A DNA stretch of 64,000 nt. Source: Selenomonas sp. AB3002. GTDB taxonomy: Bacteria; Bacillota; Negativicutes; Selenomonadales; Selenomonadaceae. The notes under the pieces are model-generated. The model was not told the DNA's origin. It made no database searches and saw only the letters and a list, made by a program, of their open reading frames with translations. The translations under genes and the position numbers were made by a program. The stretch covers positions 1,550,001 through 1,614,000 of the forward strand of contig NZ_JNIO01000008.1 of the NCBI RefSeq assembly GCF_000702545.1, read 5' to 3'. Positions 4,394 through 43,484 of this stretch are shown one piece after another. Each line of letters opens with the position of its first letter. Position 1 is the stretch's first letter.

Positions 4394-6664
4394 TTATGCC
4401 TTGGCAATCTGCACAGCGCAGACCTTGTACTCCGGCTGCTTGGAACCGGGATCGAAAGCATCCAGCAGCACCTTGTTGATCAGGCGGTCGTCTTCCGGGT
4501 CGTGGAAGGAGACGTACACCAGCCCCGGCATGGGCTTGCCGCGGCCGTTAATCTTGGCCTTGAACTTGCAGGTGGCCCGGCGGGAGGTGATGTTCACCAG
4601 ATCGCCCTCACTGATGCCCAGGCGCTTGGCATCCTCCTCGTTGACTTCAACATACATCTCAGGAGCAGCGTTTTTCAGCTCCGGCACGTTGCCCGTCATA
4701 GTGGCAGTATGCCAATGCTCCAGCATGCGGCCCGTGGTGAGGAAGAAGGGATATTCTGCATCAGGCATTTCCTGAGCGTCAATCTGAGGCCGTGCGTAGA
4801 TGACAGCCCTGTTGTTCTTGCGGCAGTAGAACTTGATGCCCTCCCCCTCCTTCACATAAGGATCATACCCCTCCGCATAGCGGATATATGTCTCGGGGGA
4901 ACTGTCGGGGTCCGGCGCCACAGGCCAGGTGAAGCCGTGGCCTTCACGCAGGCGCCTGTAGGAAGCCATCTGCATATCCGTGCCAGCCTGGCACTTCTGA
5001 TACTCTGCCCAAACCTCCTCCGGGGTCTTGAAAGGCACCAGCTTCTCAAAGCCCATGCGCTTGCCGAAGTCGATGATGGTCTCCAGGTCAGACCTGGCCT
5101 CACCGGGAGGCTCCACAGCCTTGGCGATATGGTTGGTGCGGCGCTCGCCGTTGCCGTAGACGCCTTCCTTTTCCATCCAGAGAGCGGCAGGCAGCACCAC
5201 ATCTGCCAGTTCCGAAGTGCGGGTGGGATGATAAGCCTCCGACACCACCAGGAAGACCTTCTCCATGCCGGGACGGTAGTAATTGAGGTTAGGCAGGGAC
5301 TGGCCCGGATTGGTGGTCATGACCCAGAGGCACTTGAGGTCGCCAGTGACGGCGGCTTTGAACATCTCCAGGGTATGGTAGCCGGGCTTGGAGGGCATGG
5401 TCCCCTTGGGCACGCCCCAGATTTCCTCCAGCTCGTTCCTGTGCTTCTCGTTGGCCACAAAACGATGGGCGGGCAGAATATGGGAAAGGCCGCCTGTCTC
5501 GCGGACGCTGCCGCAGGCACTGGGCTGCCCCGTCAGGGAGAAGGGCGTATTGCCTGGCTTGCAGATTTTGCCTGTCAAGAGATGCAGGTTGTGCACCAGA
5601 TTGTTGGCCCAGACGCCCCGGGTGCGCTGGTTGAAGCCCATGCACCACATGGACATGGTATTGCGCTTGGGGTCAGCAAAGAGCCTGGCCACCTCACGGA
5701 TGGTTGCGGCAGGTATGCCGCAGGCTGCCTCCACTTTCTCCGGGGTATAATCCTGCAGGAAGGCCTTGTACTCCTCATAGGTGAGCTTATCGCTGGCCCC
5801 TTTCATGAATTCCGTATGGTCAGCGATGAACTTCTCGTCCGTCAGCCCTTCCTCCACAATGACCTGGGCCATGGCGTTCATCATGGCCAGATCCCGGCTG
5901 GGAATGAAGGGCAGGTAATAGTCCGCAATATCTGCCGTGCGGGTCTTGCGGGGATCTGCCACGATGATCTTCACATTGGGGTCGCTGTTCTTCCTGTCCA
6001 CAATGCGGGAGAACAGCACCGGGTGAGCCTCGGCAGAGTTGGAGCCAATGAGGAAGAATGTATCCGCCGCCTCGATATCCGCATAGGTGCCCATGGGCTC
6101 ATCTGCCCCGTAGGTGGTGACAAAGCCTGCCACGGCGCTGGCCATACAGGTGCGGGGATTGCCCTCCACATTGTTGGTGCCGATGCCAGCCCGGAAAATC
6201 TTCTGCATGGTGTAGGTTTCCTCGGCAAAGGTCTGGCCGGAGCCATAGAAGCCCACAGAGTCCGGACCGTATTTCTCGATAGATTCCTTGAACTTCTCCA
6301 CAATGAGGTTCATGGCCTCATCCCAGCTGGCCTCCACCAGCTTGCCGTCCTTCCTGATCAGGGGCTTCTTGGCCCTGTCCTTGGTATCCATGATTTTGGG
6401 CAACAGAATGCCCTTCACGCAGAGGCGACCCTTGTTCACGGCGCAATCCGGGTCACCCTTCACGGCTACGATCTTGCCGCCAGTGACGCCTGCCAGCACG
6501 CCGCAGCCGGTGCCGCAATAACGGCAGACGCCCTTGACCCACTTCTCCGCATCCTTCTGCTCCACAGGGCCCTTCTGCGTGTCACGCTTGTTGCCGCAGC
6601 CGGCAGCCAGCATGGCGGCCGAAACTGCTATAGCCTTCAAAAAATCTCTTCTTGAAAATTTCAT
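4394..6664 (-). CDS. napA: Periplasmic nitrate reductase catalytic subunit NapA
   Basis: This 756-residue molybdoenzyme reduces nitrate to nitrite in the periplasm. The N-terminus carries a Tat signal (SRRDFLK) followed by a lipobox-like AAGCG. The 4Fe-4S site is CRYCGTGCG (about residues 50-60) with a later ligand in GRLCVKG, and the molybdenum cysteine is in NPRTCMASAV. NapA-specific stretches include GFNQRTRGVWANNL and SLTGQPSACGS. I start at the ATG after GGGAGGG at 6664 rather than six codons upstream. It is the last gene of the nap operon, 14 bases after the multihaem cytochrome. No napB is present in the window, so electrons probably arrive directly from that cytochrome. A strong hairpin follows its stop codon and overlaps the end of the IS. 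Confidence 0.93.
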   Translation of the reverse strand: MKFSRRDFLKAIAVSAAMLAAGCGNKRDTQKGPVEQKDAEKWVKGVCRYCGTGCGVLAGVTGGKIVAVKGDPDCAVNKGRLCVKGILLPKIMDTKDRAKKPLIRKDGKLVEASWDEAMNLIVEKFKESIEKYGPDSVGFYGSGQTFAEETYTMQKIFRAGIGTNNVEGNPRTCMASAVAGFVTTYGADEPMGTYADIEAADTFFLIGSNSAEAHPVLFSRIVDRKNSDPNVKIIVADPRKTRTADIADYYLPFIPSRDLAMMNAMAQVIVEEGLTDEKFIADHTEFMKGASDKLTYEEYKAFLQDYTPEKVEAACGIPAATIREVARLFADPKRNTMSMWCMGFNQRTRGVWANNLVHNLHLLTGKICKPGNTPFSLTGQPSACGSVRETGGLSHILPAHRFVANEKHRNELEEIWGVPKGTMPSKPGYHTLEMFKAAVTGDLKCLWVMTTNPGQSLPNLNYYRPGMEKVFLVVSEAYHPTRTSELADVVLPAALWMEKEGVYGNGERRTNHIAKAVEPPGEARSDLETIIDFGKRMGFEKLVPFKTPEEVWAEYQKCQAGTDMQMASYRRLREGHGFTWPVAPDPDSSPETYIRYAEGYDPYVKEGEGIKFYCRKNNRAVIYARPQIDAQEMPDAEYPFFLTTGRMLEHWHTATMTGNVPELKNAAPEMYVEVNEEDAKRLGISEGDLVNITSRRATCKFKAKINGRGKPMPGLVYVSFHDPEDDRLINKVLLDAFDPGSKQPEYKVCAVQIAKA

Positions 6665-10673: not shown

Positions 10674-12233
10674 ATGGGTAACGAAACCATAGCCTATCTG
10701 ATCAAGCAGCTGTTGAACAAGGTTTTCATCATTGTAAGCGCTGTAGCCTTCATCATCATGATCAGCCTGTATCTTTTCACAGATTACGCAGCAGTGGTCA
10801 ATGATGCTGGCATCGTGCGCGGCGGCAGCCAGCGCATCGTCAAGCAGGTGCTGGCCGGCACCGATGCCGCCCAGCTCATAGAGAAGAATGAGGGCATCCT
10901 GAAACGCCTGCAGGGAGAAATGCGCCTGGGCAGCTTCCAGGACAGGCGGGATGAGGTGGAAAAATACTGGAACAGTGAGATAAAGCCCGCCATTTCTGAA
11001 TACCAGCAAAGCAAGAATCCTGCCGGGCTGCTGGAGAAAAGCGAGAAATACTTCGAGCTGACCAACAACATGGTAGCTTCTGCCCAGCACATGGTGGACA
11101 TCATGGCCTATTTCCTCTATGTACTGCTCATCGGCTTCGCCGCAGCGGTGGGAATTTATCTGCGCAATGTCTACGCCATCTTCAGCCAGCGGGTAGTCAC
11201 CCCCATCCATGAACTGGAAGACAGCTTCAACAAACTGGCCGAAGGGCATCTTTCCCAGAAGTTCTCCTATGAGCGCCATGACGAAATCGGTGTCCTCTAC
11301 GGTCTGCTGAACAAGACCCGCAAGGCCCTACTGGATTATGTGCAGGATATTGAGAAGAACCTCAGCTGCATGGCCTCAGGGGATCTGGTCACCAGCACCA
11401 ATATGCAATACATCGGCGACTACCTGCCCATCCAGACCAATCTGGACAAAATACGCCAGACCCTCTGCAACGAAATGCATTCCATAGTAGAGATGGCAGA
11501 CCATGTGGCCGTCAGCGCCGGGGAAGTATCAAAAGTATCCCAGAGCCTGGCAGAAGGAGCCATGGCCCAGAACGAGACAGTGCAGAATCTGCAGACCAAG
11601 ATCCAGGAAGCCATCGAGGAAAATGCCAAGGTGGAAACATACGTCAACGATGCCCTGGAAGCCAGGAAGACCACCAAAGACCGCATCGGTGACAGCCGCC
11701 ATCAGATGGACAATGTGGTGACGGCCATGCAGGAAATCGGCCATGCTTCCGAGCAGATACGCACCATCCTCAGCACCCTGGACGAAATCACCGGGCAGAC
11801 AGCCCTGCTGTCCCTCAACGCCTCCATCGAGGCCGCCCGGGCCGGCGAGGCAGGCCGCGGCTTTGCGGTGGTAGCCGAGAACGTGCGCAAGCTGGCCGAG
11901 CAGTCCGCCGCCTCCACCCAGAATATCCAGCAGCTCATCTCCAACGCTCTGGCTGCCATCGACAGGGGCACGGAAGTAGTGAACAAAGCCGCCGAGTCCC
12001 TGGCCAGCACCTCCCAGAACACCCAGGTGGTGGATGCAGCCTTCCAGAAGATGAAGGAACAGAGCGTCGCCCAGCAGCACAAGATGGAAGCCGTCAGTTC
12101 CCTCTCCCAGGACATCCTGGGGGTAGTCACGGACAACTCTGCCGTCTCCGAAGAATGCGCCGCCTCCAGTACGGAGCTTTCCAGTTTCTCCAACTCTCTG
12201 AAAGAAAGCATCGGCAAGTTCCGCACACATTGA
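10674..12233 (+). CDS. Methyl-accepting chemotaxis protein with NarX/PilJ-like sensor
   Basis: About 519 residues. A first membrane helix (about residues 15-35) is followed by a short helical periplasmic domain containing [18 protein letters not shown]. That stretch resembles the P-box of NarX and PilJ-type nitrate-sensing domains. Next come a second membrane helix (about 145-165), a HAMP domain and a C-terminal signalling domain with the hairpin tip [21 protein letters not shown] start at the ATG after AGGAGGTACGACC. It lies between the nap and mod/Moco operons, so a role in taxis toward nitrate or nitrite is a reasonable inference but is not shown by the sequence alone. Confidence 0.9.
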
Positions 12234-35501: not shown

Positions 35502-35540
35502 TTTCTTTCGCCCTCACATGACACTGCTCAACGCTTTTTA

Positions 35541-36564
35541 CTCCTACGCCACCTACACGGCGGTTAACGCCTCCTTTCGCTTGATGGGGAACCCGCTAGA
35601 TTTTTAAGCCGCCTACACGGCGGTTAACAACACCCGTGGGTGGCATCATTGTCTGGCCCAATTTCTAAGCCGCCTACACGGCGGTTAACCCTTCCGCCTG
35701 TTCATACATCTGCTCCAGCATTTTCTAAGCCGCCTACACGGCGGTTAACAGGAGCCACCTTCAAAGCCTTTGCCTGGTCAAGTTTCTAAGCCGCCTACAC
35801 GGCGGTTAACAATAATTCTCCACGGATGCCCCCGACAACGTATTTCTAAGCCGCCTACACGGCGGGTCACATCGTTTTTTCTAAGCCGCCTACACGGCGG
35901 TTAACCCTTTGTACACCCGGACTGACAGCAGGTCATATTTCTAAGCCGCCTACACGGCGGTTAACAAGGAACGCTGAAGCGTGTTCGCAAGCAGGAGTTT
36001 CTAAGCCGCCTACACGGCGGTTAACACGGAACAGCTCCACCTCGAAGTCCCTGTACTTTTCTAAGCCGCCTACACGGCGGTTAACCTCCATCTGCGCAAG
36101 AAAATCCTCTGTTGCCTTTTCTAAGCCGCCTACACGGCGGTTAACGGTCAGGACATTGACTACGCCGAAGTCCTCAATTTCTAAGCCGCCTACACGGCGG
36201 TTAACGTTTGGGATGCGTTCCACACGTGGCTGAAGGATTTCTAAGCCGCCTACACGGCGGTTACGGTGCTGGCGACGTTCCCGCTGGCGTTGTAAGTTTC
36301 TAAGCCGCCTACACGGCGGTTAACGCTTGCCCTGCCTATCTTTAACCACTGGAATATTTCTAAGCCGCCTACACGGCGGTTAACCCTGCTTTCGGTGGTG
36401 ACTATATCATCAAGAATTTCTAAGCCGCCTACACGGCGGTTAACTAACAACAACGGCGACGGCTTCGGTGGCAACATTTCTAAGCCGCCTACACGGCGGT
36501 TAACCTTCGCTGCTGATTTTCCTCGTCTCTACGTTATTTCTAAGCCGCCTACACGGCGGTTAAC
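35541..36564 (-). CRISPR. Type I-F CRISPR array: 18 repeats, 17 spacers
   Basis: The 28-base repeat reads on the minus strand GTTAACCGCCGTGTAGG followed by CGGCTTAGAAA, a type I-F repeat with a CCGCC/GGCGG hairpin. Repeat starts are 35541, 35601, 35662, 35722, 35783, 35843, 35878, 35938, 35998, 36058, 36118, 36178, 36238, 36297, 36357, 36417, 36477 and 36537. Spacers are 32 bases (two are 33), except the one at 35871-35877, which is only 7 bases. The far-left repeat (35541) has four mismatches, the next (35601) one, the repeat at 35843 ends GGGTCAC, and the one at 36238 lacks one A. Degeneracy at the left and an AT-rich leader at the right show transcription leftward, in line with the cas genes. 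Confidence 0.98.
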
Positions 36565-36694
36565 AGTAAAATCCGATACCTAATACCTTATTGCACCTGC
36601 TCTCACAGCGCTTTTCCCTATTTTACCCCAAATTCTGCGCCTTCTCAAGAAGCCTTTATTTTACTTGCTTCTGACAGCAGTCCAAAAATTTGGG
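36565..36694 (-). promoter_or_regulatory. CRISPR leader with promoter
   Basis: The 130 bases between cas6f and the first repeat contain, on the minus strand, TTGAGA (36648-36643), 17 bases, and TAAAAT (36625-36620). This promoter would start transcription about 50 bases before the first repeat. The stretch GACCCAAATTTTTGG lies just after cas6f. No gene is seen. Confidence 0.65.
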
Positions 36695-37258
36695 TCAAAA
36701 CACAGGCACAGTAGACTGATTATCCAGCCCATAACTCCCGAACCCCATCGCACTGACTTCATCCTTGTCAATTTTCTCTATAGACAAACGGTACTCATGC
36801 TTGTTGCTATCACTGCGCAGCACTACATAAGGGAGTTTCCTATGCACCTGCTCCGGGAAAATCTTGATAGCCTCCTCAAAAGAGATATTATGCCTCGTGG
36901 CATATCTTCTTGCTAGTTTAGCAGGATTCCCCTTACTATGGCGGCGCTTGAAAGTAGCCCATGTAACATGCTCAGGCACCTTGGCAATTCCCTTTACATG
37001 GACATAATCGCGATACCTGGCCACCTGCTGCTGCATGTTCAGCGCTAGCAGTTCTTCTTTTGTCTCTGCAAAAATCCTTAGCTTATCCCCCAAGCCATCC
37101 AGGCTATAGTGAGGGAAGGAAACGCCAATGCGCCCCCTCTCCTCCTCCATCTTGTCTGACAAGGCAATATGAACCGACTGATACAACTTGCCCCATATAT
37201 GATTTTCATTGACCTCCCCATCCGGCAGTATGGTCAACTCCTGATAATATTTCACCAT
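36695..37258 (-). CDS. cas6f: CRISPR RNA endonuclease Cas6f (Csy4)
   Basis: This 187-residue Csy4-type nuclease cuts the pre-crRNA at the base of the repeat hairpin and stays bound. The N-terminal YYQELTILPDGE and LYQSVHIALSD (with the candidate catalytic histidine at about residue 30), RIGVSFPHYS in the middle and the arginine-rich helix FKRRHSKGNPAKLARRYATR fit the family. The start follows AAGGATGG by seven bases, three bases after the csy3 stop. It lies next to the array leader. Confidence 0.95.
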   Translation of the reverse strand: MVKYYQELTILPDGEVNENHIWGKLYQSVHIALSDKMEEERGRIGVSFPHYSLDGLGDKLRIFAETKEELLALNMQQQVARYRDYVHVKGIAKVPEHVTWATFKRRHSKGNPAKLARRYATRHNISFEEAIKIFPEQVHRKLPYVVLRSDSNKHEYRLSIEKIDKDEVSAMGFGSYGLDNQSTVPVF

Positions 37259-37261
37259 AAA

Positions 37262-38311
37262 TCAACCATCCTTCTTATCTTTCTTATCGCTCTCACCGAA
37301 TACGCCACCGCGAATGAGAACTGCTACTACATAATGTTCCTCTTCATTCGTCAAAGGTTCTTCTCCAAACATATATTTCTTAAACAAGGTATAAAAGTCC
37401 TGCTTACTGTTTGGCATGCGGAACGCCCGCCCCCTGGTAGTCACTGCGCCATAAACCTCAGCAGCCAGAACAGGCGAGTTTTCCTTGTCCGGATAGTCAG
37501 GATACCAATTATCAACAGTACGCAGCGCATTGCCGATTTTCTGGGAGTGCATGGCTGCGATGCTGTCTGACTGATACAGGATCTTGCTCTTGTCCTCCTT
37601 GCCTTTGCTAAACACCAGCTCCTCACTAGGATAAACTTCCTGGCCGAAGCCCACCTTGGCATAAGCCTTTACCTCAACATACAAATAGGGAGTCTCGCCA
37701 GACAGGGCTGAGGCAATCTTACCTGCCAACCTATCCAGATTCTCATCATATCTATCAAAATTGCGCAGAGAATAGTCATATGCTGAGAAGGTTGCCTCCA
37801 AATCATCAGCCTTCACATAAACTTCAACCTTCTCTGCCCCCAGACGATTGCGCCACAGGAAACGGCCATTAGCAATATTCGTAGCATAACGATGGGCCAA
37901 CTCCCGGCATCCCGTTTTCTTTATGTACTCTTTAACCTTGGCGTAGTAATTGTCATTAAATGCCACATCATTACAAGCAATCGGAGTTTCTACGCCACTC
38001 AGGATCTTCAACGTGAACGTCAGCACTATTGTATCCTGATTAACTCCCAGCATACAGGCATCCACTGTCTGCAAATTTGCCTTGGTAATCCTCGCCTCAA
38101 ATTTATCTTCAGTATCGGCTTTAGAATTCTCCTGCAAAGTGGAATCAGTACCGCGCACTGCTTTCTCAGTTATTTTAAGTGGCTCAGTATCATTGATATG
38201 ATTATCATCCCAGACAGTACCATATAAATAGCCATCAGAAGGAACAAGTTTCTTTTCATAAGCCAGCAGAGAGGGAAGTTTCGTATTGTTAGATTCTTTC
38301 TTCTTAGCCAT
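37262..38311 (-). CDS. csy3: CRISPR backbone protein Cas7f (Csy3)
   Basis: The 349-residue Cas7-family protein polymerises along the crRNA spacer in the type I-F surveillance complex. Csy3-like stretches include LPSLLAYEKKLVPSDGYLYG, FEARITKANLQTVDACML and NIANGRFLWRNRLGAEKVEV. SD AAGGAGAA precedes the start. No truncation is seen. Confidence 0.94.
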   Translation of the reverse strand: MAKKKESNNTKLPSLLAYEKKLVPSDGYLYGTVWDDNHINDTEPLKITEKAVRGTDSTLQENSKADTEDKFEARITKANLQTVDACMLGVNQDTIVLTFTLKILSGVETPIACNDVAFNDNYYAKVKEYIKKTGCRELAHRYATNIANGRFLWRNRLGAEKVEVYVKADDLEATFSAYDYSLRNFDRYDENLDRLAGKIASALSGETPYLYVEVKAYAKVGFGQEVYPSEELVFSKGKEDKSKILYQSDSIAAMHSQKIGNALRTVDNWYPDYPDKENSPVLAAEVYGAVTTRGRAFRMPNSKQDFYTLFKKYMFGEEPLTNEEEHYVVAVLIRGGVFGESDKKDKKDG

Positions 38312-38329
38312 ACCACATTTCTCCTTTTC

Positions 38330-39244
38330 TTATTGAACTGTCTGTTTGCAAAGATAAAGGCCATTGACCTCATCATAGTCATAACGCCACATCATTTCGT
38401 CAAGGGTATTGAATCTATGCGGCATCCTAAACTCTCCTACCGTAACTATCGGCTCAACAAAGTGATGCTCATAATCATAGTCGCGCTGGCCCTCAAGTTT
38501 ATCAGTAGGGCCGGACAAATCACAAAAACCTACAGTTATAGGTACCAGCCAGCCCTTATCAATGAATTTGCTGCTTTCCCATCGCACTACTTTCTTTTTA
38601 GAATTTTCCTGTTCCTCGACAAACTTCTTATACACTACTCGTTGAATATCCATTAGGCAGTCAAGCGCATCATGCTCCTCCGTTGGCTGTATAAGATCCG
38701 TGCGTTCCCTCAGTATAGTGCCACACATCAGTCTGGCTCTAACCTTATACATAGACTTTTCATCCCGGACATAATGAACAGTTAAATTTTTCTCATCAAA
38801 TTTTGTCCAAATATCTCCTCCAGCAGCTTTCATACGCGGCATCCGTTCCCTAACAGCATTCAGCAACATCTTTTCATTCATGCCGTTCACGCCTTCAAGT
38901 TCGATAAGGAGGCTTACGCACATATGACATCTTGCTTCTTCAATGAATGAAGCAGCCTGTATCTCACCCTTTTTACCCTTCAGCTTAGGTGGCTTGGCAT
39001 AACCAATAATGTGTGTCCTATCTACGTCTAGTCTATACGTCTGCAGTTCACATTCATGATACGATACCGCAATCCCGGTAAACTCGACTTTCTCCAACTT
39101 GCGTTGTTTTTTGACATATCTCTCCAATGCATACATGAAGCCTGTCCACGCAGTCATAGCTGGAACCCCTATGGTATAAGCTGAACTGGCCGCATTGGCA
39201 TTGTGGACCCTCATTTTAGAAAACAACAAATAAGTTTTATCCAT
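38330..39244 (-). CDS. csy2: CRISPR protein Cas5f (Csy2)
   Basis: About 304 residues, beginning MDKTYLLFSKMRVHNANAAS, a typical Csy2 start, and containing the family's ACPAMTAWTGFMYALER-like region (here IGVPAMTAWTGFMYALER). It caps the 5' end of crRNA with Csy1. I start at the ATG at 39244 after AGAGGTGA; the frame extends ten codons upstream into csy1. Confidence 0.92.
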   Translation of the reverse strand: MDKTYLLFSKMRVHNANAASSAYTIGVPAMTAWTGFMYALERYVKKQRKLEKVEFTGIAVSYHECELQTYRLDVDRTHIIGYAKPPKLKGKKGEIQAASFIEEARCHMCVSLLIELEGVNGMNEKMLLNAVRERMPRMKAAGGDIWTKFDEKNLTVHYVRDEKSMYKVRARLMCGTILRERTDLIQPTEEHDALDCLMDIQRVVYKKFVEEQENSKKKVVRWESSKFIDKGWLVPITVGFCDLSGPTDKLEGQRDYDYEHHFVEPIVTVGEFRMPHRFNTLDEMMWRYDYDEVNGLYLCKQTVQ

Positions 39245-39273
39245 CAGTCTATCACCTCTAATCAACGCAACCA

Positions 39274-40410
39274 TCAGTCTGATTGAACAACCCTAAGAAT
39301 TTTCTCTTTCAAATTATACAAAAACTTATCATCAGGTGTGATTTCTTTTCTATACTCAATTTTCCATGCTTCAACAAAAAATCCCCTCAACCTTCTGGCA
39401 AATTCCGATACAACTTCTTTCTGCCATTCATCGCTGTCATAACGTTCATCAATATATTTATCATCCAACCAGACAGCCTGTTCCCTGGGAAGCTTTCCCT
39501 TTTCACTCCAGCCTTGCGGCTCCGCACGCAACTCATACACAAATCTATATGTCTCATCGATAGCTTTGGACCAGTAATAGTCTAGTATCTCCCGATTCTG
39601 CTTATTTTCCCATGCAGTGTTATAATGCTTGCATATATGCTTATATATATCCTTGAAGGTGTTATTGAACCACACTTTTTCTTTAAAAAAATCTTTTTGA
39701 GGCAAAAATACTCTCTTATCAAATTTTGGTGGCATGGACAATAACATTTTTGCCTCCATGCCAGTCGTGCCTATAGACACATTTTGTGCATTTGCTCCAC
39801 CTATTTTGGTGCTTACCATCCCATAGATATCACTGTATTCACCTATATCAGCATCTGGCTTCCGTGCCTCAAACTTCAAATCCCTCATTGCTCTTGCCCT
39901 GGTCGCCAATTCTTGAATAACGCAAGCAGGTTGCATGACTGACAGCAGGTGATCTGTATCTCCGACAGGAAAATACACTTGCCTAAGCTTATTCCCTATT
40001 GGCGCATGACTGTCAGGCTCCTTGAAAGCAAGCAGTTTTTCTTTGATTTCATCATAGGCAAGGCCAATAGATTCTATATCTTCTCTTAACATATCATCAC
40101 TATTAAGATGCTGATATACCGTCCTGCCATCCTCTAGTTTCTTGGTAAGCAAACTGCTGGTTGCAGAATACGCGGCACTGCCATACATATCTACCTGGCA
40201 ATTCACAGTCTTGGTCATCACGTAGTTAATATCAGCCACGCCATCCGTGGGCACACAATAATTAACCTGAAGTTCAGGGTCCGTGTATTTGCCGATATGC
40301 GAAGCCAATTCTATCTTGCATACATTATCGGCCAATCTCAGCAAACAGGCCCCCAAATCCTTATCCTTGCTTTTTACTTTCTTTGCAAGTTCATCCAGGA
40401 AAACACTCAC
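39274..40410 (-). CDS. csy1: CRISPR large subunit Cas8f (Csy1)
   Basis: The 378-residue Csy1 recognises the PAM and starts unwinding. Recognisable parts include a start in the LASHIGKYTDPELQVNYCVP region, GMVSTKIGGANAQNVSIGTT near residue 200, and MLLSMPPKFDKRVFLPQKDF. Translation starts at a GTG after GAGGGGTAAGG. It is somewhat shorter than the Pseudomonas protein (434 residues). Presence of both csy1 and csy2 places this in subtype I-F1 rather than I-F2, and the presence of cas3 argues against the transposon-associated I-F3 type. Confidence 0.92.
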   Translation of the reverse strand: MSVFLDELAKKVKSKDKDLGACLLRLADNVCKIELASHIGKYTDPELQVNYCVPTDGVADINYVMTKTVNCQVDMYGSAAYSATSSLLTKKLEDGRTVYQHLNSDDMLREDIESIGLAYDEIKEKLLAFKEPDSHAPIGNKLRQVYFPVGDTDHLLSVMQPACVIQELATRARAMRDLKFEARKPDADIGEYSDIYGMVSTKIGGANAQNVSIGTTGMEAKMLLSMPPKFDKRVFLPQKDFFKEKVWFNNTFKDIYKHICKHYNTAWENKQNREILDYYWSKAIDETYRFVYELRAEPQGWSEKGKLPREQAVWLDDKYIDERYDSDEWQKEVVSEFARRLRGFFVEAWKIEYRKEITPDDKFLYNLKEKILRVVQSD

Positions 40411-40422
40411 CCTTACCCCTCC

Positions 40423-43350
40423 TCACCTAATAATTTCAACCATGCCATACTGATCAGAATATATGCGCCTGCGTTCCTTATCAGAAATAGTCAGAAGTCC
40501 CACTCTATAACTCCATTCTTTGCCAACCTCAATTGCGGTACCATAATCCCTTTCAAGCCAAAACTTCTCACTATCTTCAACTTCAGCATGAACGATGTCA
40601 TAGGTTTCTTCAACCAGCATAAACTTCCCAGATTCTTCATCCATTTTTTTAAATCTGTACCTCCCCGCATCATCTTTTTCTAGATACAATTCGATATCTC
40701 TGTCCCCCTCACGGAAAGGATTCAAAGTCTGTGGCAAACCAGTCAGATACCAATACTCGTCCTGCCAGCCATGAATAAATGCAGCCCCCACATTGGAAAG
40801 ATTGCGAAAATCGCTCAATACCTGGTGTTCCAAATCTATGAGCCGTCTCTTTGGTAACAACATTTCCTGCCTGCTGACTCTAGGTATGGCATCTACTCTC
40901 TCAGCCAGGCCATCAACGTCTACCAGTTGCTGCAAATCATGCGTCTCCAGGACATATTCTTCACACTCGAAGCCAGGCGATGTATATGCAATCTTTTTTC
41001 CCTCCAAAGCCAACATATTATATTGCATTATACAGATATTACCTACAGCCTTTGCCTTGAAAGCACATCTATGCCTGCGTATACGACCAGCCAACTGAAT
41101 GAGCGAGCGATATGAAGATGGCTCCAATATAGCCCAGTCAAAATCATGATCACGCCCCACTTCTTCGATAGGTGTAGCTACGACAATAAAGAGAATATTA
41201 TTTCCTTCTGCTTCATCTATGTGCTTACGCATAACGCTATCTGTGAAATCAATCATCTCCATATCCTGCCCCTTGCGCTTCAAGGCTCCATCAAGATATT
41301 TCTCCTGCAACGTTCGCAAAAGCAGTGTCTGCCTGCTATGATATACCATAATCCTCGGTGCCATATTTTCTGGCCACGCAGCTGTCTCTACGAAATACCT
41401 GGCTACTTCCACACACAACCTGATATTAGCTGTCCTGACAAGACCAATTGATACCTTTTTATTGGTTTTCTTATCTATTACGAAGTAATTTTGATGAAGG
41501 GTGACCGCCGCTTCTTTCATACATTCGCAATATGCCTTTCGCCTCTCATCATCTGTTTTGCTAAAAATATCAGTGCAATCCTTTATCCAGGCCCATCTTT
41601 TCGGCGGCTGAGACAGAAGTTTCTTGCAATGGTTATCAACATACGCAGCATGAGCCCTCCTGAAATCATCATCTTTTTGATTGTCCATCAACTTTACTTT
41701 GGTCATGAACTCATCACACCAAACGCAGTTGATATCATTGCTTGTACCACAAAAACGAGCATATAGTTCCCGTCCGCTTTTATAGGCAGAAAACAAGCCT
41801 TCTGCCAAATCAGGCGGTATAGTTGCCGATGACAATATCACATTGCGCCCTAGCATGCCAGCCAGATGCGTAAGCCTGGCTATAGCTACTAAATCACTGC
41901 CTGTGAAGTCATCTATCTCATCGATGACAATATCAGCCGTCATCATCCTCAGCACAGGCAAGATAAAACGTCCACCACGAATGCTTTCCGTGCCTGGCAT
42001 AAGGTGATCAATAGTGGACACCAGCACAGGAGCATACAGCAATCTGCGATGCTTCTGACTTGCATCTTCATTATTCTTAGGAAAGAGCGCCGCCAAAACA
42101 TCTTCATCTTGAGCAGTACCACCATCAATATCACCAGGCATAAGCTCATTCATGTTTGCAGTATCACTATTATCATCCCAGACTTTCTCACAATCTTCTT
42201 TTCCGCCTTTCACCCTTTCATACAGTTCCTTGACTGTAGCAGAACCAATCAACACGGCCATATCATTTTCGTTCAGCCTTACACGACTGCGATATTCATC
42301 GCCGGTTTGCAACGTGAGGCTTCTAAGCCCTAGCAGAAGACTATATCTTAAGGACTCTCCATCTTGCGAGATAGCCATGGCAAGCTTGGCATTGGCAAAG
42401 GTTTTGCCGCAGCCTGTTCCTGCCATATTGACTACAAACCATCCGCCCCCGGCCTCAGACTTTGCTTTATTTTCACGCACAGCCTTCACTGCCAAATCCT
42501 GCCAGGCAAAAGCTGACAGTTTACTTTCTTGTTGGAGTTTTTCGATATTTCTTGCCCGTTTCATCCCAACCATGAGTTTCGGCAGGGCATTGGCTATCTG
42601 AACAGCCTGCCGGGAAACACGCACCAGATGTTCAGCAAGTTTTTGCTTCAGCTTCCTTTGACAGGTATTTGCATACAAAACCTGCCATCCACCTTTCCAC
42701 GCCTTGTCAGCCTCCTCTGACGAAACAGCGTAATCTGCCAGCATCAGGCAAATTCTCGCCTGCAATAAGAAGATTCTTGTGTTTCCAGCTTCCCATATCT
42801 CCAGAAGCTTATCCTGCTCATCCAGCACCGCTTGGCTGGCTTCCTTCAGCTCCTGCAGCCAAACTGCTGAATCAAGCAGCAAGCCCTTGGAAAACATGGG
42901 CATTTTCACCTCATCAACTTTCTTATATCCCCATTCAGGCTCAATTATAGACAGTACCTCTTGAAAAGAATTGCCCTCAGCTTTCACGAAGCCAGCACAA
43001 TCTTCTTTTTTCAGTGTCGGCATTCGATGATGGCACAAAATCAACCAGCAAATCATGCTGGCAATAGGTGGCATTTCACCTATCTCCTGAGCATAGTTTT
43101 TTTGTATTGCCGCAATAAGAGCCTTTTCATCAATTTTTCCTTCGGCAAGCTGCTGAAGCCAATCAGCATCGTTATCAGCAGCAGCACAAAGATTCTCCAC
43201 CAGCTTGCAGCTAAGCCACTCGTGACGATAGCAATCTCTCGCTTTCTTCTTTCGCAGCGATTCCTGGAAAGCATCATTGGCTTTGCCCCAATCGTGCAGC
43301 AACGAGGTAAGTATCAGTATACCTGAAAGTAATTTCATATATTCCATCAT
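40423..43350 (-). CDS. cas3: Cas3 HD-nuclease/helicase without fused Cas2
   Basis: The 975-residue effector starts almost directly with an HD nuclease domain (LLHDWGKANDAFQ, about residues 17-29). The helicase follows, with Walker A AGTGCGKTFANAK (about 310), VIDEIDDFTGSD (about 475) and LAGRIRRHRCAFKAK. Type I-F normally carries a Cas2-Cas3 fusion of about 1,050-1,110 residues with Cas2 at the N-terminus. That domain is absent here, and no cas1 or cas2 gene is in the window. The start follows AGAGGGAA. It is the first gene of the cas operon. Confidence 0.93.
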   Translation of the reverse strand: MMEYMKLLSGILILTSLLHDWGKANDAFQESLRKKKARDCYRHEWLSCKLVENLCAAADNDADWLQQLAEGKIDEKALIAAIQKNYAQEIGEMPPIASMICWLILCHHRMPTLKKEDCAGFVKAEGNSFQEVLSIIEPEWGYKKVDEVKMPMFSKGLLLDSAVWLQELKEASQAVLDEQDKLLEIWEAGNTRIFLLQARICLMLADYAVSSEEADKAWKGGWQVLYANTCQRKLKQKLAEHLVRVSRQAVQIANALPKLMVGMKRARNIEKLQQESKLSAFAWQDLAVKAVRENKAKSEAGGGWFVVNMAGTGCGKTFANAKLAMAISQDGESLRYSLLLGLRSLTLQTGDEYRSRVRLNENDMAVLIGSATVKELYERVKGGKEDCEKVWDDNSDTANMNELMPGDIDGGTAQDEDVLAALFPKNNEDASQKHRRLLYAPVLVSTIDHLMPGTESIRGGRFILPVLRMMTADIVIDEIDDFTGSDLVAIARLTHLAGMLGRNVILSSATIPPDLAEGLFSAYKSGRELYARFCGTSNDINCVWCDEFMTKVKLMDNQKDDDFRRAHAAYVDNHCKKLLSQPPKRWAWIKDCTDIFSKTDDERRKAYCECMKEAAVTLHQNYFVIDKKTNKKVSIGLVRTANIRLCVEVARYFVETAAWPENMAPRIMVYHSRQTLLLRTLQEKYLDGALKRKGQDMEMIDFTDSVMRKHIDEAEGNNILFIVVATPIEEVGRDHDFDWAILEPSSYRSLIQLAGRIRRHRCAFKAKAVGNICIMQYNMLALEGKKIAYTSPGFECEEYVLETHDLQQLVDVDGLAERVDAIPRVSRQEMLLPKRRLIDLEHQVLSDFRNLSNVGAAFIHGWQDEYWYLTGLPQTLNPFREGDRDIELYLEKDDAGRYRFKKMDEESGKFMLVEETYDIVHAEVEDSEKFWLERDYGTAIEVGKEWSYRVGLLTISDKERRRIYSDQYGMVEIIR

Positions 43351-43412
43351 GAACTTCCCTCTTAAATTTATTTAAAGTTCAAACGGTGTATAAATATATC
43401 ACCAATCAACAC

Positions 43413-43438
43413 TTTTTAAGCCACCTCGCGGCGGTAAC
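43413..43438 (-). repeat. Solitary degenerate CRISPR-repeat-like hairpin upstream of cas3
   Basis: On the minus strand GTTACCGCCGCGAGG continues as TGGCTTAAAAA. It matches the array repeat at both ends and keeps a CCGCC/GGTGG stem (one G-U pair) around a shortened GCGA loop, with two bases deleted. It lies about 62 bases before the cas3 start, in what should be the promoter or 5' leader. No second repeat is seen nearby, so it is not an array. Confidence 0.75.
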
Positions 43439-43484
43439 TATTTGTATCATTTCTTCTTTTTATGGGCTTGCTGAACAAATGCGA

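Follow-up and report, generated by a model that had tools for sequence, protein, structure and literature searches.

The RNA known as CreR (cas-regulating RNA) is listed for CRISPR-Cas types I-B, I-E and V-A in the accessible sections of PMC13131331, and the accessible sections of PMC12948488 and PMC10013973 add no type I-F case. A cas-directed I-F unit was not found in the literature that we searched, which consisted mostly of papers outside subscription, and such a unit may be in print. As far as the accessible text of PMC7296934 goes, I-F1 Cascade loaded with spacers 12 nt shorter binds its target and forms an R-loop, and triggering of Cas2/3 in I-F1 needs full-length or longer R-loops (PMC7296934). 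For the I-F3 effector, the part of PMC12774636 consulted here reports that binding is unaffected by a mismatch at position 12, the base there being flipped out, as is one base in every six.

A lone type I-F repeat in the cas3 leader

The window, the whole stretch of 64,000 nucleotides that was analysed, belongs to Selenomonas sp. AB3002 (genome G000) and carries on its minus strand cas3f, csy1, csy2, csy3 and csy4, in this order, followed by an array of 18 repeats.

40423-43350, minus strand: cas3f, 975 aa, no Cas2 domain (TIGR02562 matched from position 112 only)
39274-40410, minus strand: csy1 (cas8f), above the Pfam cut-off and under the NCBIfam cut-off
38330-39274, minus strand: csy2 (cas5f), above the Pfam cut-off and slightly under the NCBIfam cut-off
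37262-38311, minus strand: csy3 (cas7f), family match
36695-37258, minus strand: csy4 (cas6f), family match and alignment to solved Csy4 chains
about 35540-36566, minus strand: CRISPR array of 18 repeats, from the repeat listing

All four csy genes are present, with family matches that span most of each protein, and the alignment to solved chains showed that the window Csy4 retains His and Ser stretches which we take to be catalytic. Since Cas3f matches its family model from position 112 only, the Cas2 part is absent. No Cas1 family match was obtained in the window genome (0/1), against 9 of 14 control genomes that gave one. Judged by its gene content, this I-F system (36695-43350), which has no cas1 and a Cas3 devoid of Cas2, looks non-adaptive. 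The array itself contains an odd unit at 35843-35905 with a spacer of 7 nt, after which the next repeat begins with GTGACCC (crRNA sense), the repeat type of the array of a genome of the same genus (G165); nearly all other window repeats begin with GTTAACC, and the odd unit looks like the product of a past recombination. The far end of the array holds a degenerate repeat copy.

Between a chemoreceptor (MCP) gene and cas3, the minus strand of positions 43413-43438 reads GTTACCGCCGCGAGGTGGCTTAAAAA, a degenerate type I-F repeat of 26 nt in cas sense, separated by 62 nt from the cas3 ATG. The claim of an earlier note that a degenerate array-type repeat lies in the sense strand of the cas3 leader, about 62 nt from the start, was borne out: compared with the array repeat, GTTAACCGCCGTGTAGGCGGCTTAGAAA, it gave an alignment score of 16.0, whereas 5,000 shuffles of the 195-nt leader scored at most 14.5 (successor-shuffles keeping most dinucleotides, those shorter than 150 nt being dropped). 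With the array excluded, the lone repeat was the only sequence in the 64-kb window to score at least 15, two further matches scoring 13 and 14. Chance similarity does not explain it. The predicted fold of its RNA (-8.3 kcal/mol, z -2.0) is a hairpin whose 5-bp stem contains one G-U pair and whose loop is GCGA, as against GUGUA in the array repeat. A Cas6f-type hairpin with its cut site is present (stem-loop plus GG/CTTA context), both the stem and the G that precedes the putative cut site being retained.

Corresponding units in a sister genome and in other type I-F loci

A Cas3 match was found in 38 of the 380 genomes of the class, the window genome included, and none in viral contigs. The closest after the window's own, with 88% amino acid identity, was that of Selenomonas sp. 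RGIG9219 (G167; JAGBLH010000073.1), which also matches the family model from position 112 only; G167 is a MAG, 95% complete and 6% contaminated, and its contig stops inside csy1. The leaders of both genomes align on either side of a single gap of 142 nt, both ends of which have AG in common. The extra 142 nt of G167 hold a promoter, read by eye as TTGACA-17-TATAAA, a degenerate repeat (psiR1, GTTTACCGCTGCAAGAATGCGGCTTAGAAG) and a pseudo-spacer of 26 nt (psiS, GTTTGTACTTTTAAT), placed before a second repeat, psiR2. The latter is identical to the lone repeat at 25 of 26 bases. In window coordinates, the features defined by this comparison are as follows.

43413-43438, minus strand: psiR2, lone degenerate I-F repeat, very probably the 3' repeat of a former CreR-type mini-CRISPR (repeat score, fold, G167 alignment)
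43438-43440, minus strand: putative deletion junction, at which 142 nt of G167 (promoter, psiR1, psiS) are absent; 2-nt AG microhomology (alignment)
43370-43384, minus strand: target (protospacer) GTTTGAACTTTAAAT of the G167 pseudo-spacer, intact (guide-target match)
43385-43386, minus strand: CC PAM of the target (guide-target match)

Over 15 positions, the pseudo-spacer of G167 agrees with CC-GTTTGAACTTTAAAT of the cas3 leader at 13; the two mismatches are at positions 6 and 12, presumably the flipped-out ones. None of 20,000 shuffled spacers equalled this match; across 13 loci (L100 left out) the same first-order resampling reached the observed score in 0 to 9 of 20,000 cases. The first target base lies 34 nt from the cas3 ATG in the window. 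Partial complementarity between the bases 5' of the hairpin and the cas promoter, which the earlier note had suggested looking for, is present in the sister genome, where it is flanked by a CC PAM and falls in the cas3 leader; in the window itself the same check fails, no psiS standing 5' of the repeat because the 142 nt are absent.

These comparisons indicate that the lone repeat is, with high probability, the psiR2 that survived when a CreR-type regulatory mini-CRISPR lost its guide half to a deletion. The polarity of the 142-nt difference is based on G167 together with the non-alignable units of other loci, from which we infer that it represents a loss. In a survey of the genus with a 233-nt probe, the leader was found in 2 of 6 genomes, complete in G167 and lacking the first 141 of the 233 bases in the window genome; that an orthologous intact unit was found in one relative only, the MAG G167, is a point against the CreR-type reading. 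So is the absence of decay in psiR2: from psiR2 through the cas3 ATG, 89 of 91 bases are the same in the window and G167, compared with 79% identity at the third codon positions of cas3, which implies either that the deletion is recent or that psiR2 retains a role.

Degenerate repeat pairs recur in the Negativicutes set, composed of 33 other I-F loci and the G167 stretch, with csy1 located within the fetched stretch in 30 of these 34. Outside arrays, such a pair was found in 16 loci, G167 among them, and in 18 there was none. The pair precedes csy1 in 13 loci and cas3 in G167, the stretches of the other two (L100 and L105) being without csy1; this difference in position between G167 and the other csy1-bearing pair loci is a further point against the CreR-type reading. 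When both strands were searched with no PAM required, 14 of the 16 pair loci had their best psiS match at a CC-flanked site near the promoter of csy1 or cas3; the match of L100 was weak (11/15), and no target was found for L105 and L107. These three loci and the 18 without any pair also count against that reading. Mismatches within positions 1-15 fell at 6 or 12 in 15 of 18 cases (binomial for two of 15 positions, 4e-11, a rough guide only since it takes mismatches as independent); this share was 20/28 with four plasmid loci added and 17/24 when the set was thinned to 12 loci. In 12 of 14 loci, the target begins 11-21 nt upstream of the -35 element of the best promoter-like pair; in L098 it overlaps the -10 element, and in G167 it begins 8 nt past that element. 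Handle and stem lie 23-26 nt apart in 14 of the 16 pair loci, with 30 nt between them in G167 and 32 in L103; in the window array this distance is 37 (a 32-nt spacer plus 5).

Where no pair was found, the Cas3 and Csy1 matches are only 22-235 nt apart in 14 of the 18 loci; as for the rest, L088 has an array between both genes, L113 gave a partial Cas3 match, and the stretches of L087 and L090 do not contain csy1. The two pairs with no recognisable target are located at 7296-7378 in L105 and 7218-7300 in L107 (oriented coordinates). The L105 repeats score high (22 and 27), and this pair may be a tiny ordinary array.

Outside the phylum, a repeat pair was present in 5 of the 11 plasmid type I-F loci fetched. 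Plasmid pM3-1-68 of Acinetobacter soli (L129) has a cas3f-first operon with cas1 not annotated, and its pair (about 6220-6450) stands in cas sense before cas3. Its psiS, TATCTATTGTACTTT, has its best match at CC-TATCTGTTGTAATTT, a site 45 nt before the ATG, where 13 of 15 positions agree and positions 6 and 12 are the sole mismatches; the runner-up match is 10/15 and has no CC. The L129 psiR2 is heavily altered. On its sequence, L129 is an independent parallel to the cas3-leader design of G167 and lends further weight to the CreR-type reading. The Acinetobacter plasmid records L124 and L129 both show cas3f with no cas1 annotated nearby. In the remaining four loci with a pair, L123 (Methylobacter), L131 (Vitreoscilla), L132 and L133 (both Acinetobacter), the pair occupies the strand opposite to cas in the cas3-csy1 interval, and each locus has a CC-flanked partial match. 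The creA-like pairs of L123 and L131 were located at 10860-11110 and about 10850-11000, respectively. Because L123 and L131 may be CreTA and L132 and L133 are CreTA-like, these four loci were left out of the CreR count.

Proposed function of the unit and alternative readings

In the intact state, as deduced from G167, a strong promoter would drive a short psiR1-psiS-psiR2 RNA whose two hairpins would both be cleaved by Cas6f (Csy4), and Cascade (Csy1-4) would then bring this crRNA-like RNA to the CC-flanked target, about the cas3 transcript start. A match of about 15 nt should be sufficient for binding and too short for the triggering of Cas3; we therefore propose that Cascade blocks transcription of cas3-csy1-csy4 and thereby limits its own supply. 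The anatomy of the unit suits a repressor, and repression is what it would predict. The window lineage would have lost promoter, psiR1 and psiS through a deletion of 142 bp with an AG dinucleotide at either end. As psiR2 and the target alone remain, the guide would no longer be made and the operon should escape control.

Of the two degenerate repeats that surround a pseudo-spacer in CreR, the window has psiR2 alone, and of a psiS complementary to the cas promoter it has the target and no psiS. A search with the 233-nt probe found no second copy of the unit in the window genome, other matches having E values of 0.03 or worse, and a loose guide pattern gave 43 matches there, the target itself included, versus 86 for a reversed control. 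Array spacers were rejected as substitute guides: none of the 18 window spacers fits the target (maximum 6/15), they reach at most 8/15 at any CC-flanked site of the leader, and in a PAM-free comparison of 11 of the 18, spacer 3 reaches 11/15 elsewhere in the leader. With guide, psiR1 and promoter absent and no substitute guide found, the CreR loop probably cannot run in the window genome, and self-repression feedback has probably been lost. The CreR-type control put forward in the earlier note thus gained support for the family, through the pseudo-spacer of the sister genome, and lost it for the window, which is without guide, psiR1 and promoter.

The window genome has a second solitary I-F repeat, outside the window and of the GTGACCC variant (L050 6102-6121 = C8:1262101-1262120). 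It lies about 30 nt after the final gene of an operon that gave Mokosh-like (MkoA, MkoB) and PDC-M26A matches, and directly precedes a Shine-Dalgarno sequence and a short ORF. Two roles are conceivable, that of a solitary repeat unit and that of a Cas6f site within an mRNA; the best CC-flanked self-match of this repeat within 13 kb, 11/15, was taken as chance.

A residual promoter or Cas6f role of psiR2 in the window is possible, and the promoter readings of the leader bear on it.

43393-43420, minus strand: best cas3 promoter-like pair, weak and putative, CTTAAA at 43415-43420, 16 nt, TATATT at 43393-43398 with TG extension (promoter-pair scan)

The -35 element of this pair, CTTAAA, is the tail of psiR2, and the same pair is found in the G167 leader; use of the tail as -35 would be a simple reason for its retention. 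A stricter scan found no sigma-70 site in the leaders of the window or G167, another point against the CreR-type reading, although, as it requires T as the last -10 base, it passes over the promoter read by eye in G167. By eye, an extended -10-like motif, TGATACAAA, stands just 5' of the hairpin, so that an upstream start is possible. It is conceivable, though we think it unlikely, that the leftover repeat has been retained as a controller that works without a guide, the 3' tail serving as the cas3 -35 element and the hairpin being bound by Cas6f when transcription comes from upstream; if true, an RNA-guided feedback would have collapsed into a direct loop at the level of Cas6f or of the promoter in a CRISPR system that has ceased to acquire spacers.

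Alternatively, psiR2 might lie in the 5' UTR of the cas3 mRNA and be bound or cut there by Cas6f, giving direct feedback that needs no guide. Cas6f is encoded, the hairpin stem and the G before the cut site are kept, the stretch from psiR2 to the ATG agrees with G167 as described above, and TGATACAAA is placed immediately upstream of the hairpin. However, the best promoter-like pair is at and downstream of the psiR2 tail, so that the hairpin may lie outside the cas3 mRNA, and the G167 copy of the repeat is accounted for as the psiR2 of a guide unit. We regard an mRNA leader controlled by Cas6f as distinctly improbable.

The unit could also be the remnant of an antitoxin, that is, creA of a CreTA module (a Cascade-repressed toxin RNA), and no regulator of cas. 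The accessible part of PMC10097628 describes psiR1-psiS-psiR2 with a CC-flanked target between cas3 and csy1 in I-F Acinetobacter; L133 is one of the strains studied there and has this anatomy, and L132 looks alike. Yet the 34 nt from the first target base to the cas3 ATG leave scarcely room for a toxin gene, and loss of the guide in the window genome, with target and leader intact, is hard to reconcile with a live toxin. Between the target and csy1 or cas3, none of 13 Negativicutes loci had a mini-ORF of at least 5 codons with Shine-Dalgarno sequence and stop. A CreTA origin, for which the window has hardly any toxin room and these 13 loci no closed mini-ORF with Shine-Dalgarno sequence, was rejected as very improbable.

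Solitary I-F repeats work in phages as RNA anti-CRISPRs, according to the accessible part of PMC10651486, and the lone repeat might similarly tie up Cas6f and Cas7f as a solitary repeat unit or a decoy of the Racr kind. It lies outside any phage, between the chemoreceptor gene and cas3; the exact psiR2 core was not found in a scan of viral contigs, and the promoter scan of the leader is negative, though it also misses the G167 promoter. Since the repeat is not phage-borne, such a decoy was rejected as scarcely credible. Equally hard to credit is a decayed leftover of an ordinary array upstream of cas3 with no regulatory past. Repeats do decay, as the degenerate copy at the far end of the window array illustrates, but such an origin leaves unexplained the match between psiS and target in G167 and the recurrence in 13 more Negativicutes loci and L129, and it was rejected on account of that match.

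Comparison with known systems

Under the preferred reading, a CreR-type unit that lost its guide half, the intact units are probably new I-F representatives of CreR, and in the window genome a switch for CRISPR self-repression looks naturally deleted. If true, autorepression of cas genes by guide RNA would extend to type I-F, with an unusually clean natural rule set consisting of a CC PAM, a conserved seed and mismatches that fall mostly on bases 6 and 12, and shortened spacers should allow Cascade to bind without triggering Cas3. Set beside its intact sister, the window genome would be a naturally occurring deletion mutant in which the cost of lost autorepression is directly testable.

The units of the relatives resemble CreR in being psiR1-psiS-psiR2 mini-CRISPRs placed at a cas promoter to which they are partly complementary, at a site flanked by a PAM. 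They differ from it in subtype, which is I-F here; in addition, the G167 unit precedes a cas3-first operon whose Cas3 is without the Cas2 part, and the window keeps psiR2 and the target only. With CreA of the I-F Acinetobacter CreTA, as presented in the accessible part of PMC10097628, they share the psiR1-psiS-psiR2 order, the I-F subtype and the CC PAM, and most Negativicutes units share its intergenic place between cas3 and csy1. In contrast to that system, in which a toxin mini-ORF of 33 bp runs divergently from creA according to the same part of PMC10097628, the Negativicutes units run in cas sense, their targets adjoin the csy1 or cas3 promoter, and no toxin ORF was found in the 13 loci examined. 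Racr and solitary repeat units, to judge from the accessible part of PMC10651486, have in common with the lone repeat a single repeat-like hairpin; RacrIF1 resides in a prophage and has a promoter of its own that expresses it at a high level (PMC10651486, same part), whereas the window repeat belongs to a chromosomal cas leader.
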